A stretch of 64,000 nucleotides of DNA. Source: Boothiomyces macroporosus (Eukaryota > Chytridiomycota > Chytridiomycetes > Rhizophydiales > Terramycetaceae). The translations under genes and the position numbers were made by a program. This document shows positions 6,367 to 59,915 of the stretch, one piece after another (positions within the stretch are counted from its first letter, which is position 1; the number at the start of each line of letters is the position of its first letter). The stretch lies in the NCBI GenBank assembly GCA_027604185.1, contig JADGKB010000024.1:82602-146601 (forward strand), written 5' to 3'. Below the pieces are notes generated by a model. That model made no database searches, was not told the DNA's origin, and saw nothing but the letters and a program-made list of their open reading frames with translations.

Positions 6367-7734
6367 TTAAGAAAATAAATAATGATCAAGGATCCTTTCG
6401 CATTCCTCATGGTCAAGTAATTCACCTTCCATCACCTTCAGAACATCCAGATACTCTGGCTTTCGCATACCAACTAAAACCGACCCAGATGATGCCGATA
6501 TTAAAGTCTTGATTATGTTGTGAGTCAAGGGCAAGCCATTCCCAAACACTTTGTTGATCTCATCAAGCTTTGAGTTACCAGCCAGTGCACACAACTGGAC
6601 AACATGATCAAATAGTAAATCAGTTTCCTAAATTAAAGACAGTTACTTTTTTGTACTTTTTGATAAATGATTCTACAAACTCTGTTTCTAAATCGGAATC
6701 TTTCAGGTATTCAAAATCTTTTTCCAGTTCTGGTTTCAAGTCCCTATCAAAGTACAGTTTACATGCCATTTCATTTGTAACTAGACGGGATAGATTGTCA
6801 CCGATGATTTGAGCGATACAAAATTTACTCAGGAGAATGGAATCAGTGATATCGCCTTCTAGTTTGCTTTCCAGTTCTTGTTCCAACTGTACAACCTTTT
6901 CAAACTGCAGTGTGACTTTTTCATTGATTTCATGATCATTCAGAGGTCGTTTAACTAATTTCAAAACTCCGTTTGGTGTAATTGCGTTGAAGGGCCTGTT
7001 TGTAATTTGGTAGATTCCTTGATCAATCATTTTCTCTGCCAAACTATCTCCAAATTGTGAATTGATGGCATTCTGTTCAAACAGATTCAAAGGGTATTGA
7101 ACAACTTCAAATCCATCCATACCAACAAATTTAGTTACATCGAAATGATCTGGCGCAGATTGAATTCCAATTGAATTCGAACAGATCCCAAAACGCTTAA
7201 TTCTGCCATCCTTTACTTCCTGCTGTAAATAACTTGAAGATGTGTCAATCATTTCCATTAACCTTTGCTTTCCAATCAATCCTCCTTGAACTTGAAGTAA
7301 CCTTTCAGGATTGTTCAACATGAAAATATCCAGATAATCAACTTGAAGCCTTTTCAATGACTCCGTGATAGAGTATTGGAGGTAATCTGGATGAATAGAG
7401 TAAAAGGAATCTTTAATTTGAAAGCATTCCTTGAAGTTGGTTTTTCCATTGTAAATATATCCCGCCTTTGTCGAGAGAGTCAAATGCTAAATTATATTGA
7501 TATTACCGACCGCAAGTTGGGATATTGCGATACTATGGATCCTATAGCCGCCTCCCTTGCTCCGTTTCCAAAATGTGAGCTGGTATCAATCAAATTTATT
7601 CCATTTTCGATCGCTTCTTTCAATGCAAATGGGTTGAATGATCGAAAAGTCCCAAAACCTATTTTTGACAGTAATTTGCCGGATTTGGGGATCTTTTCGT
7701 ACAGTATTTTTGGATATTCTTGCAGCCTTGGCAT
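6367..7734 (-). CDS. Aldo/keto reductase superfamily protein with altered catalytic tetrad
   Basis: Single-domain (beta/alpha)8 NAD(P)H-dependent oxidoreductase fold with an extended C-terminus, 442 aa, two introns (7487-7506 and 6628-6646). The N-terminus LLSKIGFGTFRSF, INLIDTSSHFGNG, LSTKAGY and VDYLDIFMLNNPE are AKR motifs. The catalytic Asp (in LIDTS) and Lys (STKAGY) are present. The position of the catalytic Tyr reads Phe (SHFGNG) and the active-site His reads Asn (FMLNNPE, where relatives have LHNPE). The reading frame is intact, so this is not an obvious pseudogene. It may have lost oxidoreductase activity or act as a ligand-binding protein. The substrate is unknown. Confidence 0.8.
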
Positions 7735-9701: not shown

Positions 9702-11808
9702 CTAGTCAACTTCTTCCATTTGAGATTCAACAGCAGCATCTTCAAGTGGTGGGAGGTCTTCAACTTCCATTGGTTGTTCGTCTTCATCGATGCTCAAACC
9801 TAATTTGATCATACGGTGGATACGGTTTGCAAAGGTAGATGGGTCATCGAGAGCAAATCCAGAAGACAATAGAGCAGTTTCGTAGAGCAAGAAGGTAAGG
9901 TCCTTGACGGTCTTGTCGTTCTTGTCTGCATCAGCTTTGGCTTTGAGGGAAGCAACAATAGCGTTTTCTGGGTTCAATTCCAAAGTCTTCTTGGAAGCCA
10001 TGTAAGCAGACATTGAAGAGTCGCGGAGGGCTTGTGCCTTCATGATTCTTTCCATGTTTGCGGACCAGCCGTACTGTCCAGTGACCAGCACGCAAGGGGA
10101 GTTGACGATTCTGTTGGACAAGACAACCTTTTCGACTTTGTCGCCCAAGATCTCCTTGATTTGGGTGCAGAGCGGTTCGTACTGGGTCTTGAGCTCTTCA
10201 AACTTTTTCTTTTCTTCTTCGTCTTCTTCCAATTCGAGGCCCTCCTTGGTGACAGAGACGAGCTTCTTTCCGTCAAACTCCTTCAATTGCTGGATAGAGT
10301 ACTCGTCGATTGGGTCGACCAAGTACAAGACTTCAAAGCCCTTCTTCTTGAGTCTTTCCAAGAACGGAGCGGTTTCAACAGAGAGCTTGGACTCACCGGT
10401 GATGTAGTAGATGTCCTTTTGCTTTTCTGGCATGCGGGTGACATAGTCCTTGAGGGAGGTCATTTCTTCGCCAGACTTGGTAGAGTGGTAGCGGAGCAAC
10501 TCTGCAAGCTTGGCTCTGTTGGACGAGTCTTCGTGGATGCCAAGTTTGATGTTCTTGGAGAAGGCTTCGTAGAACTTTTTGAATTGCTCCTTGTCCTCAG
10601 CGATTTCAAAGAACATTTCGATGCACTTCTTGACCAAGTTCTTTCTGATGACCTTCAAGATCTTGTTTTGCTGCAAGACTTCACGAGAAATGTTCAGTGG
10701 CAGGTCTTCAGAGTCGACAATACCCTTGACAAACGAAAGCCACTCTGGGATGAGGTCTTCACAGTCGTCCATGATGAACACACGGCGGACGTAAAGTTTG
10801 ATGTTGTTGCGCTTCTTCTTTTGTTCGAATTGGTCGAATGGAGCTCTGCTTGGGATAAAGAGAAGAGCCCTGAACTCTAATTGGCCTTCAACAGAAAAGT
10901 GCTTGACAGCCAAGTGGTCTTCCCAGTCGTTAGACAGAGCCTTGTAGAATGAAGCGTATTCCTCCTTGGTGATATCTTCTGGGTTTCTGGTCCAGAGCGG
11001 CTTAGTCTTGTTCAGCTCTTCGGTTTCCTTGGTGATCTCCTTGACCTTCTTGGTCTTTGGCTTTTCTTCTTCGTCGGTGATTTCCTCAATCTTTGGCTTG
11101 TCGGCATCTTCGCCTTCTTTGGCTTCTTCTTCGACCTCGACGTCCTTTTCGACTTCCTTTTCGACTACGAGCTGGATAGGATAGCCAATGAACTCAGAGT
11201 GCTTCTTGACGATTTCCTTGATCTTCTTTTCTTCAAGGTATTCAAGTTGGTCTTCCTTCATGTGCAAGCGCATCAACGTACCACGGCCAAGCGGTGGATA
11301 TTTGGTGTCTCTGGTGATGGTGAAGGAGCCTCCAGCAGCAGATTCCCAAACGTATTGCTCGTCGTCGTTGTGCTTGGTAATGACTTCCACCTTGTCGGCA
11401 ACCAGGTAGGCAGAGTAGAAACCAACACCGAATTGACCAATCATGGAGATATCGGCACCGCTGGATAGGGCCTCCATGAAGGATCTGGTTCCAGACTTGG
11501 CAATAGTACCCAGGTTGTTTACAAGGTCCGCCTTGGTCATACCGATACCAGAATCGCGGATTTCCAATACTTTGTTTTCCTTATCTGGAACAATTCTGAT
11601 GAACAGCTCCTTTTCGGCATCCAGCTTTGATGGATCAGTCAAGGACTCGTAACGGATCTTGTCGCAAGCATCAGAAGCATTGGAGATCAGTTCTCTCAAA
11701 AAGATTTCCTTGTTGCTGTAGAAAGTATTAATAATGAGGGACATGAGCTGCGTTAAAGAATATGCTTACCTGAGAGATCTCAGCTTGGAATGCAAAGGTT
11801 TCAGACAT
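9702..11808 (-). CDS. HSP90: HSP90 cytosolic chaperone, copy A
   Basis: ATP-dependent chaperone, 694 aa. One 22-nt intron (11748-11769) follows codon 13. N-terminal ATPase domain: [31 protein letters not shown] and [16 protein letters not shown] charged linker rich in Glu/Lys comes next, then the middle domain ([32 protein letters not shown]). The C-terminal MEEVD binds TPR co-chaperones and marks the cytosolic form. Bases 9777-11802 are nearly identical in reverse orientation to copy B at 57818-59840, including the intron. The copies differ at the extreme N-terminus (MSETF here), by one extra Glu in the linker and in the last 25 residues. Confidence 0.98.
9777..11802 (-). repeat. HSP90 inverted repeat, arm A (2026 bp)
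   Basis: Nearly identical to 57818-59840 on the opposite strand. The 3-bp length difference equals the one-codon indel in the charged linker. Similarity ends abruptly inside the coding region at both ends; the flanks are unrelated. Confidence 0.9.
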
Positions 11809-33405: not shown

Positions 33406-34665
33406 ATGAGATTGTCAACCGTACTTGCAGTAATTGCAGGAGTTAGAGGACAACTACCAGGGTTAAACGTACCAACAGTATTTCAACATGTACAGTTAGG
33501 TTACAATGGTACAACGCCATCCACTTCAGCTGTAGTCAACGCTGCCGCTGTTACAACTACCGACGCAGCAACTGCCCAGACAACATCAGCTCCACCTCCT
33601 GTACAAACTACCGTTGTCCAAACCACTGTTGCTGTTCAAACCACTTTGGCAGCAACAACAGATGCTGCTCAAACTACCAGCGCACCTGCTCCAACTAATA
33701 ACTCTACTCCTCCTCCATCAACCTCCAATCAAACATCCAACCAAGGAAGCACTTCCCAAACAAACCAAGGCACTTCATCTGGCACATCAAATGGATCAAG
33801 CTCCAACCAAGGCTCAGCTAGCTCACAAGGAACTTCTTCCAATGGTATTTATACTTCAAACACTCACAAGTGTTTTGTAAAAGGGCCAAGAAAACAGTAT
33901 GTATTTAATGGAAATATCAAGCCAATGCATCAAATAACTGCACTACCAAGTTATCAACAACCAGCCCCACCTGTTGTAGCACAAGGGCCAATTGCTACTC
34001 CTCCAGCTACTCCTCAAGGTTATCCTGGGGCTCCACAAGCAAACCCAGTTGGTTATCCAGTTGCTACTCCTCCAGCATCTGTACCACAGCCTACATCACA
34101 AGCAGAAAACATTCCTCAACAAGGAATACCAGTTGCTCAAGTGACTACAGCACCATGTAACAAAGAAACTCAAGCACCAGTACCAGTTGTGACTACCACT
34201 CAGTGCAACCAGCCTCCACCACCACCTGTCACTACTCCATGCAACCAAAATCAAGCAGTTGCTACTCCAACCATCAATCAGTTGCCACCGGTGCAAACTA
34301 GCCAAGTTTATCAACAAAATGGCAGCAAAAATAACGGTTACAACCAAGTAAATAACGGCTACAACCAAGGAAATAACGGCTACAACCAAGGAAATAACGG
34401 TTACAACCAAGTAAATAACGGTTACAACCAAGGAAATAACGGTTACAACCAAGGAAATAGTGGTTACAACCAAGTAAATAACGGCTACAACCAAGGAAAT
34501 AACGGCTACAACCGCAACAAAAACCAAGGTAGTCAACACAAGGGCAAGTATCACAAAAAGGGCAAGCACCACAATAAGCAGGAGGGACAGAAAGGCTACC
34601 AACACAAAAAGAAGGGCAAAGGTGAAAAGAAACACCATGGCTACAAGAGGGACATGGCAGAGTAA
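33406..34665 (+). CDS. Secreted low-complexity matrix protein, LPGL-HxC family member 2, with NGYNQ repeats
   Basis: 419 aa, no intron. Signal peptide at 1-15 (MRLSTVLAVIAGVRG), then QLPGLNVPTVFQHVQLGYNG, which aligns with the N-terminus of the protein at 21341. Next are Thr/Ala and Ser/Asn/Gln-rich mucin-like stretches, a single-cysteine block (THKCFVKGPRKQYVFNGNIK) that aligns with the other paralog, and Pro-rich segments with TTAPCNKETQ, TTTQCNQ and TTPCNQ motifs. Then come nine tandem NNGYNQ(V/G) heptads (34330-34518) and a very basic Lys/His/Gly tail (KGKYHKKGKHHNKQEGQKGY). No GPI signal. The basic tail could bind acidic polysaccharide; that is inference. Confidence 0.85.
   Translation: MRLSTVLAVIAGVRGQLPGLNVPTVFQHVQLGYNGTTPSTSAVVNAAAVTTTDAATAQTTSAPPPVQTTVVQTTVAVQTTLAATTDAAQTTSAPAPTNNSTPPPSTSNQTSNQGSTSQTNQGTSSGTSNGSSSNQGSASSQGTSSNGIYTSNTHKCFVKGPRKQYVFNGNIKPMHQITALPSYQQPAPPVVAQGPIATPPATPQGYPGAPQANPVGYPVATPPASVPQPTSQAENIPQQGIPVAQVTTAPCNKETQAPVPVVTTTQCNQPPPPPVTTPCNQNQAVATPTINQLPPVQTSQVYQQNGSKNNGYNQVNNGYNQGNNGYNQGNNGYNQVNNGYNQGNNGYNQGNSGYNQVNNGYNQGNNGYNRNKNQGSQHKGKYHKKGKHHNKQEGQKGYQHKKKGKGEKKHHGYKRDMAE
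34330..34518 (+). repeat. Nine tandem 21-bp coding repeats (NNGYNQ[V/G])
   Basis: Unit is AAT AAC GGY TAC AAC CAA RKA, repeated nine times with few changes (one NSGYNQ, last unit NNGYNRN). Copies ending in GTA create GTAAAT donor-like sites, and CAAG ends create acceptor-like sites 22 nt later. Confidence 0.95.
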
Positions 34666-42257: not shown

Positions 42258-44330
42258 TTAATCTCTATCATTATAATTCCTAATTTTCCTCTTAATTTTA
42301 ACATTACGATCTTCAGTCTTTTTTTCTGCCAGTTTGGATTCTAGGAATTTCAATCGATTGTTTTCTTCCAACAGAACACTCTTTTCTTTTACTACTTTTT
42401 TGTATTCATTCAAGAGTAGATTGAATTTATCACGAACGTGGTCTCTCGGATAATTCAACTGCTCGATATCCACTCGCATTTGGTGTATTATTGATTTCAA
42501 TTCACTGTTTTCGTTGACTAGAACGTATTCAGACTCTTTAGATTCATTTTTCATTTGATCAATCTATATTAAATGCAATTACCACTTGTTTCTGCATATT
42601 TATTTCCAAGAGTAATTGATCTATTCTTGACTCTAATGATTTCACTCTACTTGTTGAATTGTCAACTTTGCTGTTTTTGAATTCTAATTCTGTCTCTAAT
42701 TGCTTTGTATAATGGCTCAATTCAGTAAATGAGCTTTCTAATTTCGACTTTTCATTCAATGCAGCATCTAGTCTGCTTTTTAATTCAACAATTTCTTGTT
42801 TTTGGGAATCCACCGTAATTGAAAATTCTTTTTTGCAACTGGATAGCTCTTTTGAATGAGTTAACTTTAACTGATTCAAATACAAGTCTTTGGCACTACG
42901 CTCATTCACAATAGTTGCCATTTTCGATTGCAAATCATCAATTTCAGTTTCATATTTTGCTACCAGTTTTTGTTTTTCTATTTCAAACGTATCCCCTAGT
43001 TCTAAAATATTCTTTTCAAAATCTTTTTTTAATTCTTGTATCTCTATTTGATGATTACTAATTTGCAATAACTGACTTTGAATCTCTCTTTGATACTCTA
43101 AATTTTGGGCACTGAGAGCTTTCTTTTCTCGAACTGTTCTATTCAAATCTTGCAAAAGATTATTTCTCTCTTTCACATACTCTTTTCTTTGCAAGTCATT
43201 GTAATCCCTTTCTTGCTCAATAGTATTTTGTAATTCCAGAATTTTTTCATTTATAATCTGACGTTCATCTGCATATTGCCATTTGGTATCCCTCAAACAA
43301 GATTCAAGATTTCTAGAGTTAACAACTGTCTTTTTAAAAACAAGCGATAAAACTTACTTTATGGTATTTGAAGCATCCAGTAACCTTGATTCAATATTTT
43401 CCTTTTGCTTTGCAATGTTGATGTAATCCAGCTTCATCTGTTTAAACTCGTCATTAATCTCTATATTCTTTTCTTTATATTGCTTTTCTAAATCCATTAA
43501 TTCTAACTGATGATTTTCCTGTTGAATTTTCATTTGGAATTTCAATTCCTCCTTTTCTTTTTCCAATTCATTAAACTTTGTATTCAGCTCATTTATCAAT
43601 AGAGAATTTCTTTGCTCCATTTCTTGCTTTGACTTTAGGAAATCGTTTTGTTTTTCGTTAATCTTTTCCTCAAATTCAATTTTGATTCTGTTTTTGATTT
43701 CCCAAAACTCTTGCTTCAGGTCTTGCTTTTCTTTGTAGATTAGCAAATACTTTGAGTTTAATTCTTGTTTTTCTTGCTCTTTCTTTTCAATCACTTGACA
43801 TCTACGTTACCCAAAAGTACAGTTCCTTGTTTTGATTTTCTAATGAATTCAACTGTTTCTCCAATTGAGCAAGATCCAAGTCACGTTCTTTTAGTAATTC
43901 CAAATTGTATAAAAAGTCTTGCTTTACCTGTTGTAGCTGATTAGTAATTTGCATCGTCTCTTTTAAGTCTATTTATACCTAAATTAGAAAGTTTAACCTT
44001 ATTTAGTATTATTTACCTAAGTTAATCAACTGTGGCAACCAAAGTTTAACTACTTTATACCTCAAATTAAAATAATCTTACCTAGATCTTAGTTCTGGTA
44101 GACCTTGATTAAAATTAACAAACCTAGATCTTAGTTCTGGTAGACCTTGATTAAAATAAACAAACCTAAAATTAACTTTTAAAAACCTTAATTAAATATA
44201 AATTACCTAGATCAAACCCTGCTTACCTGTAAATTCTTTTCCTGGTATTGCGCTTCCAGCTCCTTGTAAATCTAGATTAACTGAAACTGACTTGTTCGAA
44301 ATCCCGTCCAAATCTCAAAATTTTCTCCAT
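42258..44330 (-). CDS. Long coiled-coil protein; gene carries the stacked-intron array
   Basis: 566 aa of almost continuous heptad coiled coil, with no other domain seen. Splice sites: 20-nt intron 44272-44291, 269-nt intron stack 43958-44226, 19-nt intron 43802-43820, 45-nt nested intron 43313-43357 and 19-nt intron 42564-42582. The start reads MEKILRFGRDFEQIYKELEA. The stack joins QEKNLQ to TMQITNQLQQVKQD in phase 0, and the 45-nt intron joins DASNTIK to NLESCLRDTKWQ. With all of these removed the frame is uninterrupted and the length is an exact number of codons. A centrosomal, ciliary or Golgi tether role is possible, but sequence alone does not choose. It shares a 29-bp divergent promoter region with poly(A) polymerase. 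Confidence 0.82.
43313..43357 (-). other. 45-nt intron decomposable into a 24-nt intron nested in a 21-nt intron
   Basis: Outer donor GTAA at 43357-43354, inner GT...AAAAAG of 24 nt at 43353-43330, remainder ACAGTTGTTAACTCTAG at 43329-43313. Excising the inner piece leaves a perfect 21-nt intron with a GTTAAC branch motif. No 19-24 nt intron alone restores the frame here. The decomposition is an interpretation; a plain 45-nt intron is the alternative. Confidence 0.6.
43958..44226 (-). other. Stacked array of about 12-13 minimal introns at one splice position
   Basis: Read on the minus strand, units abut with AG|GT at 11 of the 12 internal boundaries I define: 44226-44207 (20 nt), 44206-44187 (20), 44186-44166 (21), 44165-44146 (20), 44145-44124 (22), 44123-44104 (20), 44103-44082 (22), 44081-44061 (21), 44060-44017 (44; splits as 24 inside 20), 44016-43998 (19), 43997-43979 (19), 43978-43958 (21). 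Each unit has its own GT, a TTAA/CTAA-type branch motif and a terminal AG. The only non-AG edge is TTTG at 44040, inside the 44-nt unit. Total removal keeps the coiled-coil frame. Confidence 0.85.
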
Positions 44331-57805: not shown

Positions 57806-59915
57806 ATGCCTGAAAGCGAAACCTTTGCATTCCAAGCTGAGATCTCTCAGGTAAGCATATTCTTTAACGCAGCTCATGTCCCTCATTATTAATACTTTCT
57901 ACAGCAACAAGGAAATCTTTTTGAGAGAACTGATCTCCAATGCTTCTGATGCTTGCGACAAGATCCGTTACGAGTCCTTGACTGATCCATCAAAGCTGGA
58001 TGCCGAAAAGGAGCTGTTCATCAGAATTGTTCCAGATAAGGAAAACAAAGTATTGGAAATCCGCGATTCTGGTATCGGTATGACCAAGGCGGACCTTGTA
58101 AACAACCTGGGTACTATTGCCAAGTCTGGAACCAGATCCTTCATGGAGGCCCTATCCAGCGGTGCCGATATCTCCATGATTGGTCAATTCGGTGTTGGTT
58201 TCTACTCTGCCTACCTGGTTGCCGACAAGGTGGAAGTCATTACCAAGCACAACGACGACGAGCAATACGTTTGGGAATCTGCTGCTGGAGGCTCCTTCAC
58301 CATCACCAGAGACACCAAGTATCCACCGCTTGGCCGTGGTACGTTGATGCGCTTGCACATGAAGGAAGACCAACTTGAATACCTCGAAGAAAAGAAGATC
58401 AAGGAAATCGTCAAGAAGCACTCTGAGTTCATTGGCTATCCTATCCAGCTCGTAGTCGAAAAGGAAGTCGAAAAGGACGTCGAGGTCGAAGAAGAAGCCA
58501 AAGAGGGCGAAGATGCCGACAAGCCAAAGATTGAGGAAATCACCGACGAAGAAAAGCCAAAGACCAAGAAGGTCAAGGAAATCACCAAGGAAACCGAAGA
58601 GCTGAACAAGACTAAGCCGCTCTGGACCAGAAACCCAGAAGATATCACCAAGGAGGAATACGCTTCATTCTACAAGGCTCTGTCTAACGACTGGGAAGAC
58701 CACTTGGCTGTCAAGCACTTTTCTGTTGAAGGCCAGTTAGAGTTCAGGGCTCTTCTCTTTATCCCAAGCAGAGCTCCATTCGACCAATTCGAACAAAAGA
58801 AGAAGCGCAACAACATCAAACTTTACGTCCGCCGTGTGTTCATCATGGACGACTGTGAAGACCTCATCCCAGAGTGGCTTTCGTTTGTCAAGGGTATTGT
58901 CGACTCTGAAGACCTGCCACTGAACATTTCTCGTGAAGTCTTGCAGCAAAACAAGATCTTGAAGGTCATCAGAAAGAACTTGGTCAAGAAGTGCATCGAA
59001 ATGTTCTTTGAAATCGCCGAGGACAAGGAGCAATTCAAAAAGTTCTACGAAGCCTTCTCCAAGAACATCAAGCTTGGCATCCACGAAGACTCGTCCAACA
59101 GAGCCAAGCTCGCAGAGTTGCTCCGCTACCACTCTACCAAGTCTGGCGAAGAAATGACCTCCCTCAAGGACTATGTCACCCGCATGCCAGAAAAGCAAAA
59201 GGACATCTACTACATCACCGGTGAGTCCAAGCTCTCTGTTGAAACCGCTCCGTTCTTGGAAAGACTCAAGAAGAAGGGCTTTGAAGTCTTGTACTTGGTC
59301 GACCCAATCGACGAGTACTCTATCCAGCAATTGAAGGAGTTTGACGGAAAGAAGCTCGTCTCTGTCACCAAGGAAGGCCTCGAATTGGAAGAAGACGAAG
59401 AAGAAAAGAAAAAGTTTGAAGAGCTCAAGACCCAGTACGAACCGCTCTGCACCCAAATCAAGGAGATCTTGGGCGACAAAGTCGAAAAGGTTGTCTTGTC
59501 CAACAGAATCGTCAACTCCCCTTGCGTGCTGGTCACTGGACAGTACGGCTGGTCCGCAAACATGGAAAGAATCATGAAGGCACAAGCCCTCCGCGACTCT
59601 TCAATGTCTGCTTACATGGCTTCCAAGAAGACTTTGGAATTGAACCCAGAAAACGCTATTGTTGCTTCCCTCAAAGCCAAAGCTGATGCAGACAAGAACG
59701 ACAAGACCGTCAAGGACCTTACCTTCTTGCTCTACGAAACTGCTCTATTGTCTTCTGGATTTGCTCTCGATGACCCATCTACCTTTGCAAACCGTATCCA
59801 CCGTATGATCAAATTAGGTTTGAGCATCGATGAAGACGAAACCGTGGAAGTTGTGGATGACCTCCCACCACTTGAAGACGTTGCTGTTGAATCTCAAATG
59901 GAAGAAGTTGATTAA
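57806..59915 (+). CDS. HSP90: HSP90 cytosolic chaperone, copy B
   Basis: 695 aa with one 22-nt intron (57851-57872) at the same codon and of the same sequence as in copy A. The protein differs from copy A only at the N-terminus (MPESETF), by one Glu fewer in the charged linker (ITDEEKPK) and in the last 25 residues ([20 protein letters not shown]). The C-terminal MEEVD is kept. The TATA box and unrelated 5' flank suggest that it is regulated differently from copy A, perhaps as the stress-inducible gene; this is inference. Confidence 0.98.
57818..59840 (+). repeat. HSP90 inverted repeat, arm B (2023 bp)
   Basis: Nearly identical to 9777-11802 on the other strand, including the intron and almost all synonymous sites (one visible synonymous change is in the codons for TKYPPLG). 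The arms are separated by about 46 kb. Confidence 0.9.

Follow-up and report, generated by a model that had tools for sequence, protein, structure and literature searches.

A stack of 13 putative minimal introns at a single position of a coiled-coil gene in the chytrid Boothiomyces macroporosus

The window analysed here is a stretch of 64,000 nt from the Boothiomyces macroporosus genome (15.2 Mb, 216 contigs), covering positions 82602-146601 of contig JADGKB010000024.1 (G000:C24:82602-146601). By its proteins the genome groups with the rhizophydialean chytrids; Boothiomyces is a member of the Terramycetaceae (Rhizophydiales, Chytridiomycota). The minus strand of the window carries a gene for a coiled-coil protein. 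Its start codon (ATG at 44330) and that of a divergent poly(A) polymerase gene (44360) are separated by a mere 29 nt, leaving hardly any promoter room between the two. Elsewhere the window holds a pair of almost identical HSP90 reading frames, oppositely oriented and roughly 46 kb apart (9702-11765, minus strand; 57855-59915, plus strand), a 21-nt coding minisatellite (NNGYNQ repeats; 34329-34513) in a secreted-looking protein, and an oligopeptide-transporter reading frame whose nearest protein comes from Kappamyces. The Rfam library had zero matches in the window, and ARAGORN reported zero tRNAs in it. Read from its start codon, the coiled-coil gene shows the following parts:

44292..44330, minus strand: exon 1 (MEKILRFGRDFEQ), with the start codon at 44330
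44272..44291, minus strand: solitary intron 1, 20 nt
44227..44271, minus strand: exon 2 (IYKELEAQYQEKNLQ), adjoining the stack on its 5' side
43958..44226, minus strand: the stack, read from the sequence as 13 abutting minimal introns, set in phase 0 with codon Q28 before it and T29 after it, its edges backed by the homologue P0024
43821..43957, minus strand: exon 3, starting TMQITNQL and adjoining the stack on its 3' side
43802..43820, minus strand: solitary intron, 19 nt
43313..43357, minus strand: 45-nt intron (alternatively a 24-nt intron within a 21-nt intron), its removal backed by both relatives
42564..42582, minus strand: solitary intron, 19 nt, close to the 3' end of the gene

Over aligned columns, the predicted host protein shares 97% of its residues with its counterpart in Boothiomyces sp. 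JEL0838 and 64% with that of Boothiomyces sp. JEL0866. The JEL0866 protein (P0024) starts MEKIKRFGQDFEQIYKELEQQYQEKNLQ, with 25 of 28 residues equal to those of the two exons before the stack, then has 13 extra residues (39 nt) at the place of the stack and continues with TIEITNQL, compared to TMQITNQL in the window. Since this protein matches up to the stack and picks up again at its 3' edge, both adjoining exons are coding, and the 269 nt can be read as intervening. Apart from the 39 nt in JEL0866, the annotated homologous proteins contain nothing that corresponds to the 269 nt. Those 39 nt can be back-translated as GT..AG|GT..AG with units of 19 and 20 nt, and we infer that the JEL0866 gene would carry a two-unit stack at this place which its annotation has translated. 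One alternative is that the 269 nt are noncoding, as intergenic or 5' UTR sequence separating the poly(A) polymerase gene from a coiled-coil gene that would begin at the ATG just past the stack (43954). It would agree with our own gene model, which missed the 13-unit stack, and with the JEL0838 annotation, both of which place the gene start past the stack, and it would remove a gap between start codons that falls below the smallest (50 nt) of 24 predicted divergent gaps. However, the N-terminus of the JEL0866 protein speaks strongly against it, since both upstream exons are there and are better matched than the protein as a whole (25 of 28 residues vs 62-64%); other stacks, moreover, sit within conserved proteins, and we leave the alternative next to no probability.

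When cut at AG|GT, the 269 nt fall into pieces of 20, 20, 21, 20, 22, 20, 22, 21, 44, 19, 19 and 21 nt, the same lengths as in the original prediction, which had described a minus-strand run of abutting 19-22-nt units plus one of 44 nt. The 44-mer is best read as 21 + 23 nt, a putative GT-TG unit and after it a GT-AG unit, giving 13 units in total; the expected count of 12-13 stood, and on this reading one unit does not end in AG. The units, numbered in the direction of transcription, are as follows (all on the minus strand):

44207..44226: unit 1, 20 nt, GT-AG
44187..44206: unit 2, 20 nt, GT-AG
44166..44186: unit 3, 21 nt, GT-AG
44146..44165: unit 4, 20 nt, GT-AG; makes up the first copy of a 42-nt duplication together with unit 5
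44124..44145: unit 5, 22 nt, GT-AG; no strict branch motif
44104..44123: unit 6, 20 nt, GT-AG; with unit 7, the second copy of the duplication; differs from unit 4 at one base
44082..44103: unit 7, 22 nt, GT-AG; exactly equal to unit 5; no strict branch motif
44061..44081: unit 8, 21 nt, GT-AG
44040..44060: unit 9, 21 nt, GT-TG (or the first half of a 44-nt unit); no strict branch motif
44017..44039: unit 10, 23 nt, GT-AG
43998..44016: unit 11, 19 nt, GT-AG; no strict branch motif
43979..43997: unit 12, 19 nt, GT-AG
43958..43978: unit 13, 21 nt, GT-AG; acceptor set by the homologue (TIEI vs TMQI); no strict branch motif

Overall, 12 of the 13 units have GT..AG ends and one has GT-TG, and the junctions inside the stack comprise 11 AG|GT and one TG|GT with zero exon bases between them. 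Eight successive AGGT junctions lie 19-22 nt apart, compared to a maximum of four (reached by 4 shuffles) in 20,000 dinucleotide shuffles of these 269 nt; these shuffles and the branch-motif test given below rule out a chance origin of the stack. Retention of the 269 nt would shift the frame (269 mod 3 = 2) and bring in stops, while their exact removal is in phase 0 and, with four further introns taken out, yields a reading frame of 566 aa, confirming the predicted restoration of the coiled-coil frame, for which P0024 supports both exons. With a mean pairwise identity of 0.65, the 13 units are about as unlike each other as random pairs of solitary introns (0.68). It had also been claimed that most units differ and that this is no simple repeat, which holds for most of them; units 4+5 and 6+7, however, are tandem copies of a 42-nt segment that differ at a single base.

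The introns of the host genome were described with a gene model that combines a phased Markov coding model with GT..AG introns and permits stacks, applied to the window plus 20 further 10-kb stretches, which together amount to 264 kb or about 1.7% of the genome. In this sample 366 introns were predicted, from which a solitary set of 357 was obtained by leaving out 2 stacked introns and 7 longer than 25 nt. Solitary introns measure 17-25 nt with a mode of 20 nt (54 of 19 nt, 163 of 20 nt, 79 of 21 nt, 44 of 22 nt and 17 of other lengths), and 333 of the 357 have an A at +3. A branch motif, defined as YTAAY, YTGAY or TAAY, was present in 287 of the 357 (80%), and in 243 of those 287 the branch A precedes the last base by 5-6 nt. 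Of random 19-22-nt GT..AG stretches taken from this sequence, 987 of 6754 (14.6%) have the motif. Permitting other intron ends raised the gene-model score from 6808 to 6838 for TG acceptors, 6846 for GC donors and 6836 for AA acceptors; the gain for TG acceptors and GC donors is only suggestive, as AA acceptors gain too. Genes were located for four spliceosomal snRNAs, which would be of use for studying a spliceosome that cuts 20-nt introns; a U5 snRNA was not found in the genome by a search that matched no control either:

C34:106388-106550: U1 snRNA gene, scoring just below the Rfam cut-off
G000:C80:60682-60874: U2 snRNA gene, with a second U2 at C178:9607-9797
C201:910-1042: U4 snRNA gene
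C59:61918-62023: U6 snRNA gene

Against this background, the original prediction that the units of the stack resemble solitary introns holds for size (19-23 nt) and for the GT..AG ends of 12 of the 13, and less well for the internal signals. The strict branch motif is found in 8 of the 13 units (it is missing in 5, 7, 9, 11 and 13), and only 6 of the 13 donors read GTA, so that 7 of 13 have no A at +3, compared to 24 of 357 solitary introns. The units of the 13-unit stack are therefore on average weaker than solitary introns, and some of them may leave jointly with a neighbour.

A genome-wide search for tandem units, which the original prediction had proposed, showed that stacks recur in other genes, such as MGM101 and DCAF5. 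The search pattern was AGGTN{14,19}AGGTN{14,19}AGGT, with the branch motif kept outside the search criteria. It gave 157 matches, compared to 62 and 55 when the spacings were made 8 nt longer and 8 nt shorter, respectively, overlapping matches of one repeat being counted repeatedly in all three counts. A control with the reversed pattern gave 250 + 253 = 503 matches vs 69 + 88 = 157 in the forward direction, and this excess speaks against a plain reading of the pattern count; we replaced the reversed control by the shifted spacings because TGGA words are, as we presume, probably commoner than AGGT. Among 100 of the 157 matches, the branch motif occurred in both units in 37 (25 loci; 2.1 expected), in one unit in 29 and in none in 34. 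One of the 25 loci (L038) proved to be a false stack, consisting of one intron followed by a coding GTG. Further stacks, read together with their flanks, comprise 9, 7, 5, 5, 4, 3, 3, 3, 2, 2, 2 and 2 units:

MGM101 (name from Pfam), in the central region of L026-L032: 9 units
DCAF5 (name from that of a relative): 7 units and, at a second site, 2 units
TPR-protein gene, which we take to be CYC8-like: 5 units; open frame after removal
C5 gene: 5 units, one with a GC donor; open frame after removal
TFIIH p62 (Pfam: BSD domain above the cut-off, PH domain below it): 4 units
Gene presumed to be UEV-like: 3 units and 3 units
RGG-repeat protein, on our assumption probably fibrillarin, in the central region of L051: 3 units and 2 units; open frame after removal of both
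Two further stacks: 2 units each

Junctions were checked against homologues for the window stack, MGM101 and DCAF5, the other stacks being judged by frame where tested; the stack in L025 also left an open frame after removal. Ten of the 13 stacks came to light via a pattern that presupposes AG|GT junctions, a bias that counts against them as evidence. In the unbiased sample, only two stacks are known among roughly 366 intron positions, the 13-unit stack of the window and a 2-unit stack in L003. Stacks were called by the gene model itself at three (L026-L032, L039 and L043-L050) of the 13 merged pattern loci; for DCAF5 it recognised only part of the 7-unit stack, which was completed by hand. 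Another five stacks were hand-read (L025, L033/L034, L040/L041 and two in L051). The model and hand reading found zero stacks at L023/L024, L035/L036, L037 and L042, and L022 was left out of the stack set for its unclear boundaries. The RGG-repeat gene has its two stacks within the repeat region, one of them with a TG end. This is the second GT-TG unit, the last in L051, and its TG end is needed for the RGG-repeat frame, a frame chosen by the analyst.

In MGM101, the 9 units separate L111 from V112, a junction over which the sequence of the solved MGM101 protein (PDB 9yi6) aligns ungapped. The DCAF5 protein and its JEL0838 counterpart share 99% identity; its 7-unit site (FKGT^GHLSN) is joined directly in JEL0838 and Terramyces, and its 2-unit site (TKP^GRRQN) in Terramyces and JEL0866. 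At the 2-unit site, seven additional residues (GHQKLKI) stand in the JEL0838 model, and in the window genome the second unit reads GHQK in frame and then a stop; we infer that a 21-nt form of this second unit was left in by the JEL0838 annotation. The 13 extra residues of JEL0866 DCAF5 at the 7-unit site could not be read as two GT-AG units. Altogether, three public gene models show extra residues at stack sites, 13 in P0024 and 13 in P0027 (both JEL0866) and 7 in P0025 (JEL0838), and these residues probably come from intron sequence that the annotations left unspliced and translated. Stacks would explain odd public gene models of the close relatives, which start past a stack or seemingly translate part of it.

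Branch signals are kept in most internal units of the stacks. After collapsing units that were 80% alike within one stack, 30 of the 38 distinct internal units from 13 stacks (79%) carried the branch motif, similar to solitary introns and far above the value for random stretches (p = 1.3e-18); in 24 of the 38 it lay at the usual distance of 5-6 nt, and with the window's stack excluded it was present in 25 of 30. If a stack were removed in one step, the inner branch motifs would be expected to decay. This bears on the explanation that the 269 nt form a single ordinary intron which uses only the first donor and the last acceptor, the inside being an inert AT-rich minisatellite built from copies of a short intron. 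Such an origin would fit the plain tandem duplication seen in parts of three stacks, as in MGM101 with five near-identical 20-nt units (an intron minisatellite) and in the UEV-like gene with three, the near-identical units of three stacks being too young to reveal selection; the weakness of several units in the window stack and the few unsplit 45-66-nt introns predicted point the same way. Against it speak inner units that are mutually unlike and still keep the motif, and the 7-unit DCAF5, CYC8-like and p62 stacks, in which zero unit pairs are 80% alike; predicted introns longer than 26 nt are rare (8 of 466 in the sample and the pattern loci with long introns permitted, several of them doubtful). 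We regard a single 269-nt intron as improbable. It appears likely, from the sequence evidence, that one intron position holds about 13 self-sufficient U2-type introns, each spliced singly, and that such stacks grow by tandem duplication.

The original prediction went further and supposed that this spliceosome can cut only about 19-24 nt. Such a ceiling is not established: single introns of 45, 54, 55 and 66 nt are predicted in the sample, of which only the 45-nt one was homology-checked, and those of 54 and 55 nt have no split into GT-AG units of 18-25 nt, even nested ones. A nested decomposition was possible for 2 of the 8 long introns, and shuffled sequences decompose too (85/300 and 14/300; the 45-nt intron at 43313-43357 corresponds to 85/300), so that a nested make-up of long introns was dropped as a claim. 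Two other long predictions were judged to be model errors, namely a 148-nt intron that joins two reading frames, maybe of separate genes, and a 30-nt intron that represents the L051 stack in another frame. At least some introns of 45-55 nt may be removed by a single cut, as far as the gene model goes. A stronger interpretation, which in our estimate could equally well prove right or wrong, is that intron length is quantised, with a spliceosome ruler of about 20 nt and growth only by whole cuttable units, introns thereby becoming satellite DNA with the intron as repeat unit; because all splicing routes give the same mRNA, the copy number of such a satellite would be free to drift.

For the preferred explanation, with each unit an intron in its own right, the following mechanism can be proposed. 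The spliceosome would remove each unit of 19-23 nt separately by intron definition and in free order. As all junctions but one are AG|GT, a donor joined to any later acceptor would leave a proper intermediate, and every splicing route through the array would end in one and the same mRNA. Tandem duplication of an intron, or of a whole number of units, would add further removable units that are invisible in the protein, and arrays could thereby expand and contract in the manner of a satellite. Once a unit had lost its signals, it would be selected against, be deleted, or leave together with a neighbour; the weak donors and motifs in the 13-unit stack would fit such harmless skipping of units, because most donor-acceptor pairs lead to the same mRNA.

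With regard to origin, the units could instead have arrived by separate insertions of new introns, in an introner-like manner and landing at AG|GT, a possibility that concerns origin only and is compatible with removal unit by unit. Most units in a stack are indeed no more alike than random solitary introns, the mean pairwise identity being 0.61-0.74 in nine stacks compared to a null mean of 0.68. Near-identical introns at unlinked sites, as expected of an introner-element family, amount to only 7 pairs among the 355 solitary introns of the 264-kb sample, so that no young intron family is in sight; the units that are plainly alike are, moreover, neighbours or next neighbours within one stack. 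Separate insertion is in our view a rather unlikely origin, if one worth keeping in mind beside tandem duplication. Descent of introns from tandem-duplicated exon sequence was also discarded, as the likeness of intron starts to the next exon (2.33 of 8 positions) is close to chance (2.23, sd 0.06) and 0 of 355 introns reach at least 7 of 8.

Chains of minimal introns in several genes suggest that introns can here grow by whole units. Within one genome they provide a natural gradation in the number of introns per position, from a single intron up to thirteen, for questions that other systems make difficult to address. It bears on the minimum intron for a fungal spliceosome and a possible upper size limit, on how neighbouring splice sites are kept apart when no exon lies between them, and on the multiplication of introns. 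Arrays with young and old units may also show ongoing intron gain by tandem duplication. In the literature searched, which included few subscription papers and some sources only in part, we found no description of deep stacks of minimal introns and none of 20-nt introns in chytrids.

Several known systems share features with the stacks. Recursive splicing cuts long introns in larger steps, whereas the units of the window stack are 19-23 nt long, the genome's normal intron size, and stand up to 13 in a row. Similar to the ratchet points of Drosophila with their zero-length exons, the window stack has AG|GT without an exon base; in the available parts of the reports on recursive splicing, abutting likewise occurs at AG|GT and the following step makes use of the regenerated donor (PMC5126111; dual-specific AGGT sites, PMC10809524). 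Stwintrons, as described in the accessible text of two papers, are complex fungal intervening sequences removed by successive standard splicing reactions, made of two nested introns of which the inner leaves first (PMC9024468, PMC7138796). In the window stack, by contrast, the units lie side by side, are many and would leave in free order, and none of the abutting units is interrupted, unless the 44-nt stretch is read as nested, which is possible; the 45-nt intron of the coiled-coil gene could be a nested, stwintron-like case. Very short introns with a narrow size range are known from protists, at 16-17 nt in mikrocytids and 15-16 nt in heterotrich ciliates, in a paper whose accessible parts do not mention stacks (PMC10245619), and the accessible parts of a paper on ultra-short ciliate introns do not contain the word "tandem" (PMC5014332); the window genome belongs to a fungus. 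The nearest published case to the deep stacks, among the texts available to us, is that of the chlorarachniophyte nucleomorphs, with introns of 18-23 nt and two introns of 40 and 41 nt that bear a relict AG in the middle and are, according to their authors, two fused introns each (PMC4494063). Those fusions, as far as that paper's available text describes them, amount to two isolated instances in a relict nucleus, each of two units whose middle has decayed, whereas the stacks described here lie in a fungal nuclear genome, occur at many loci, reach 13 units and mostly keep the signals in their middle.
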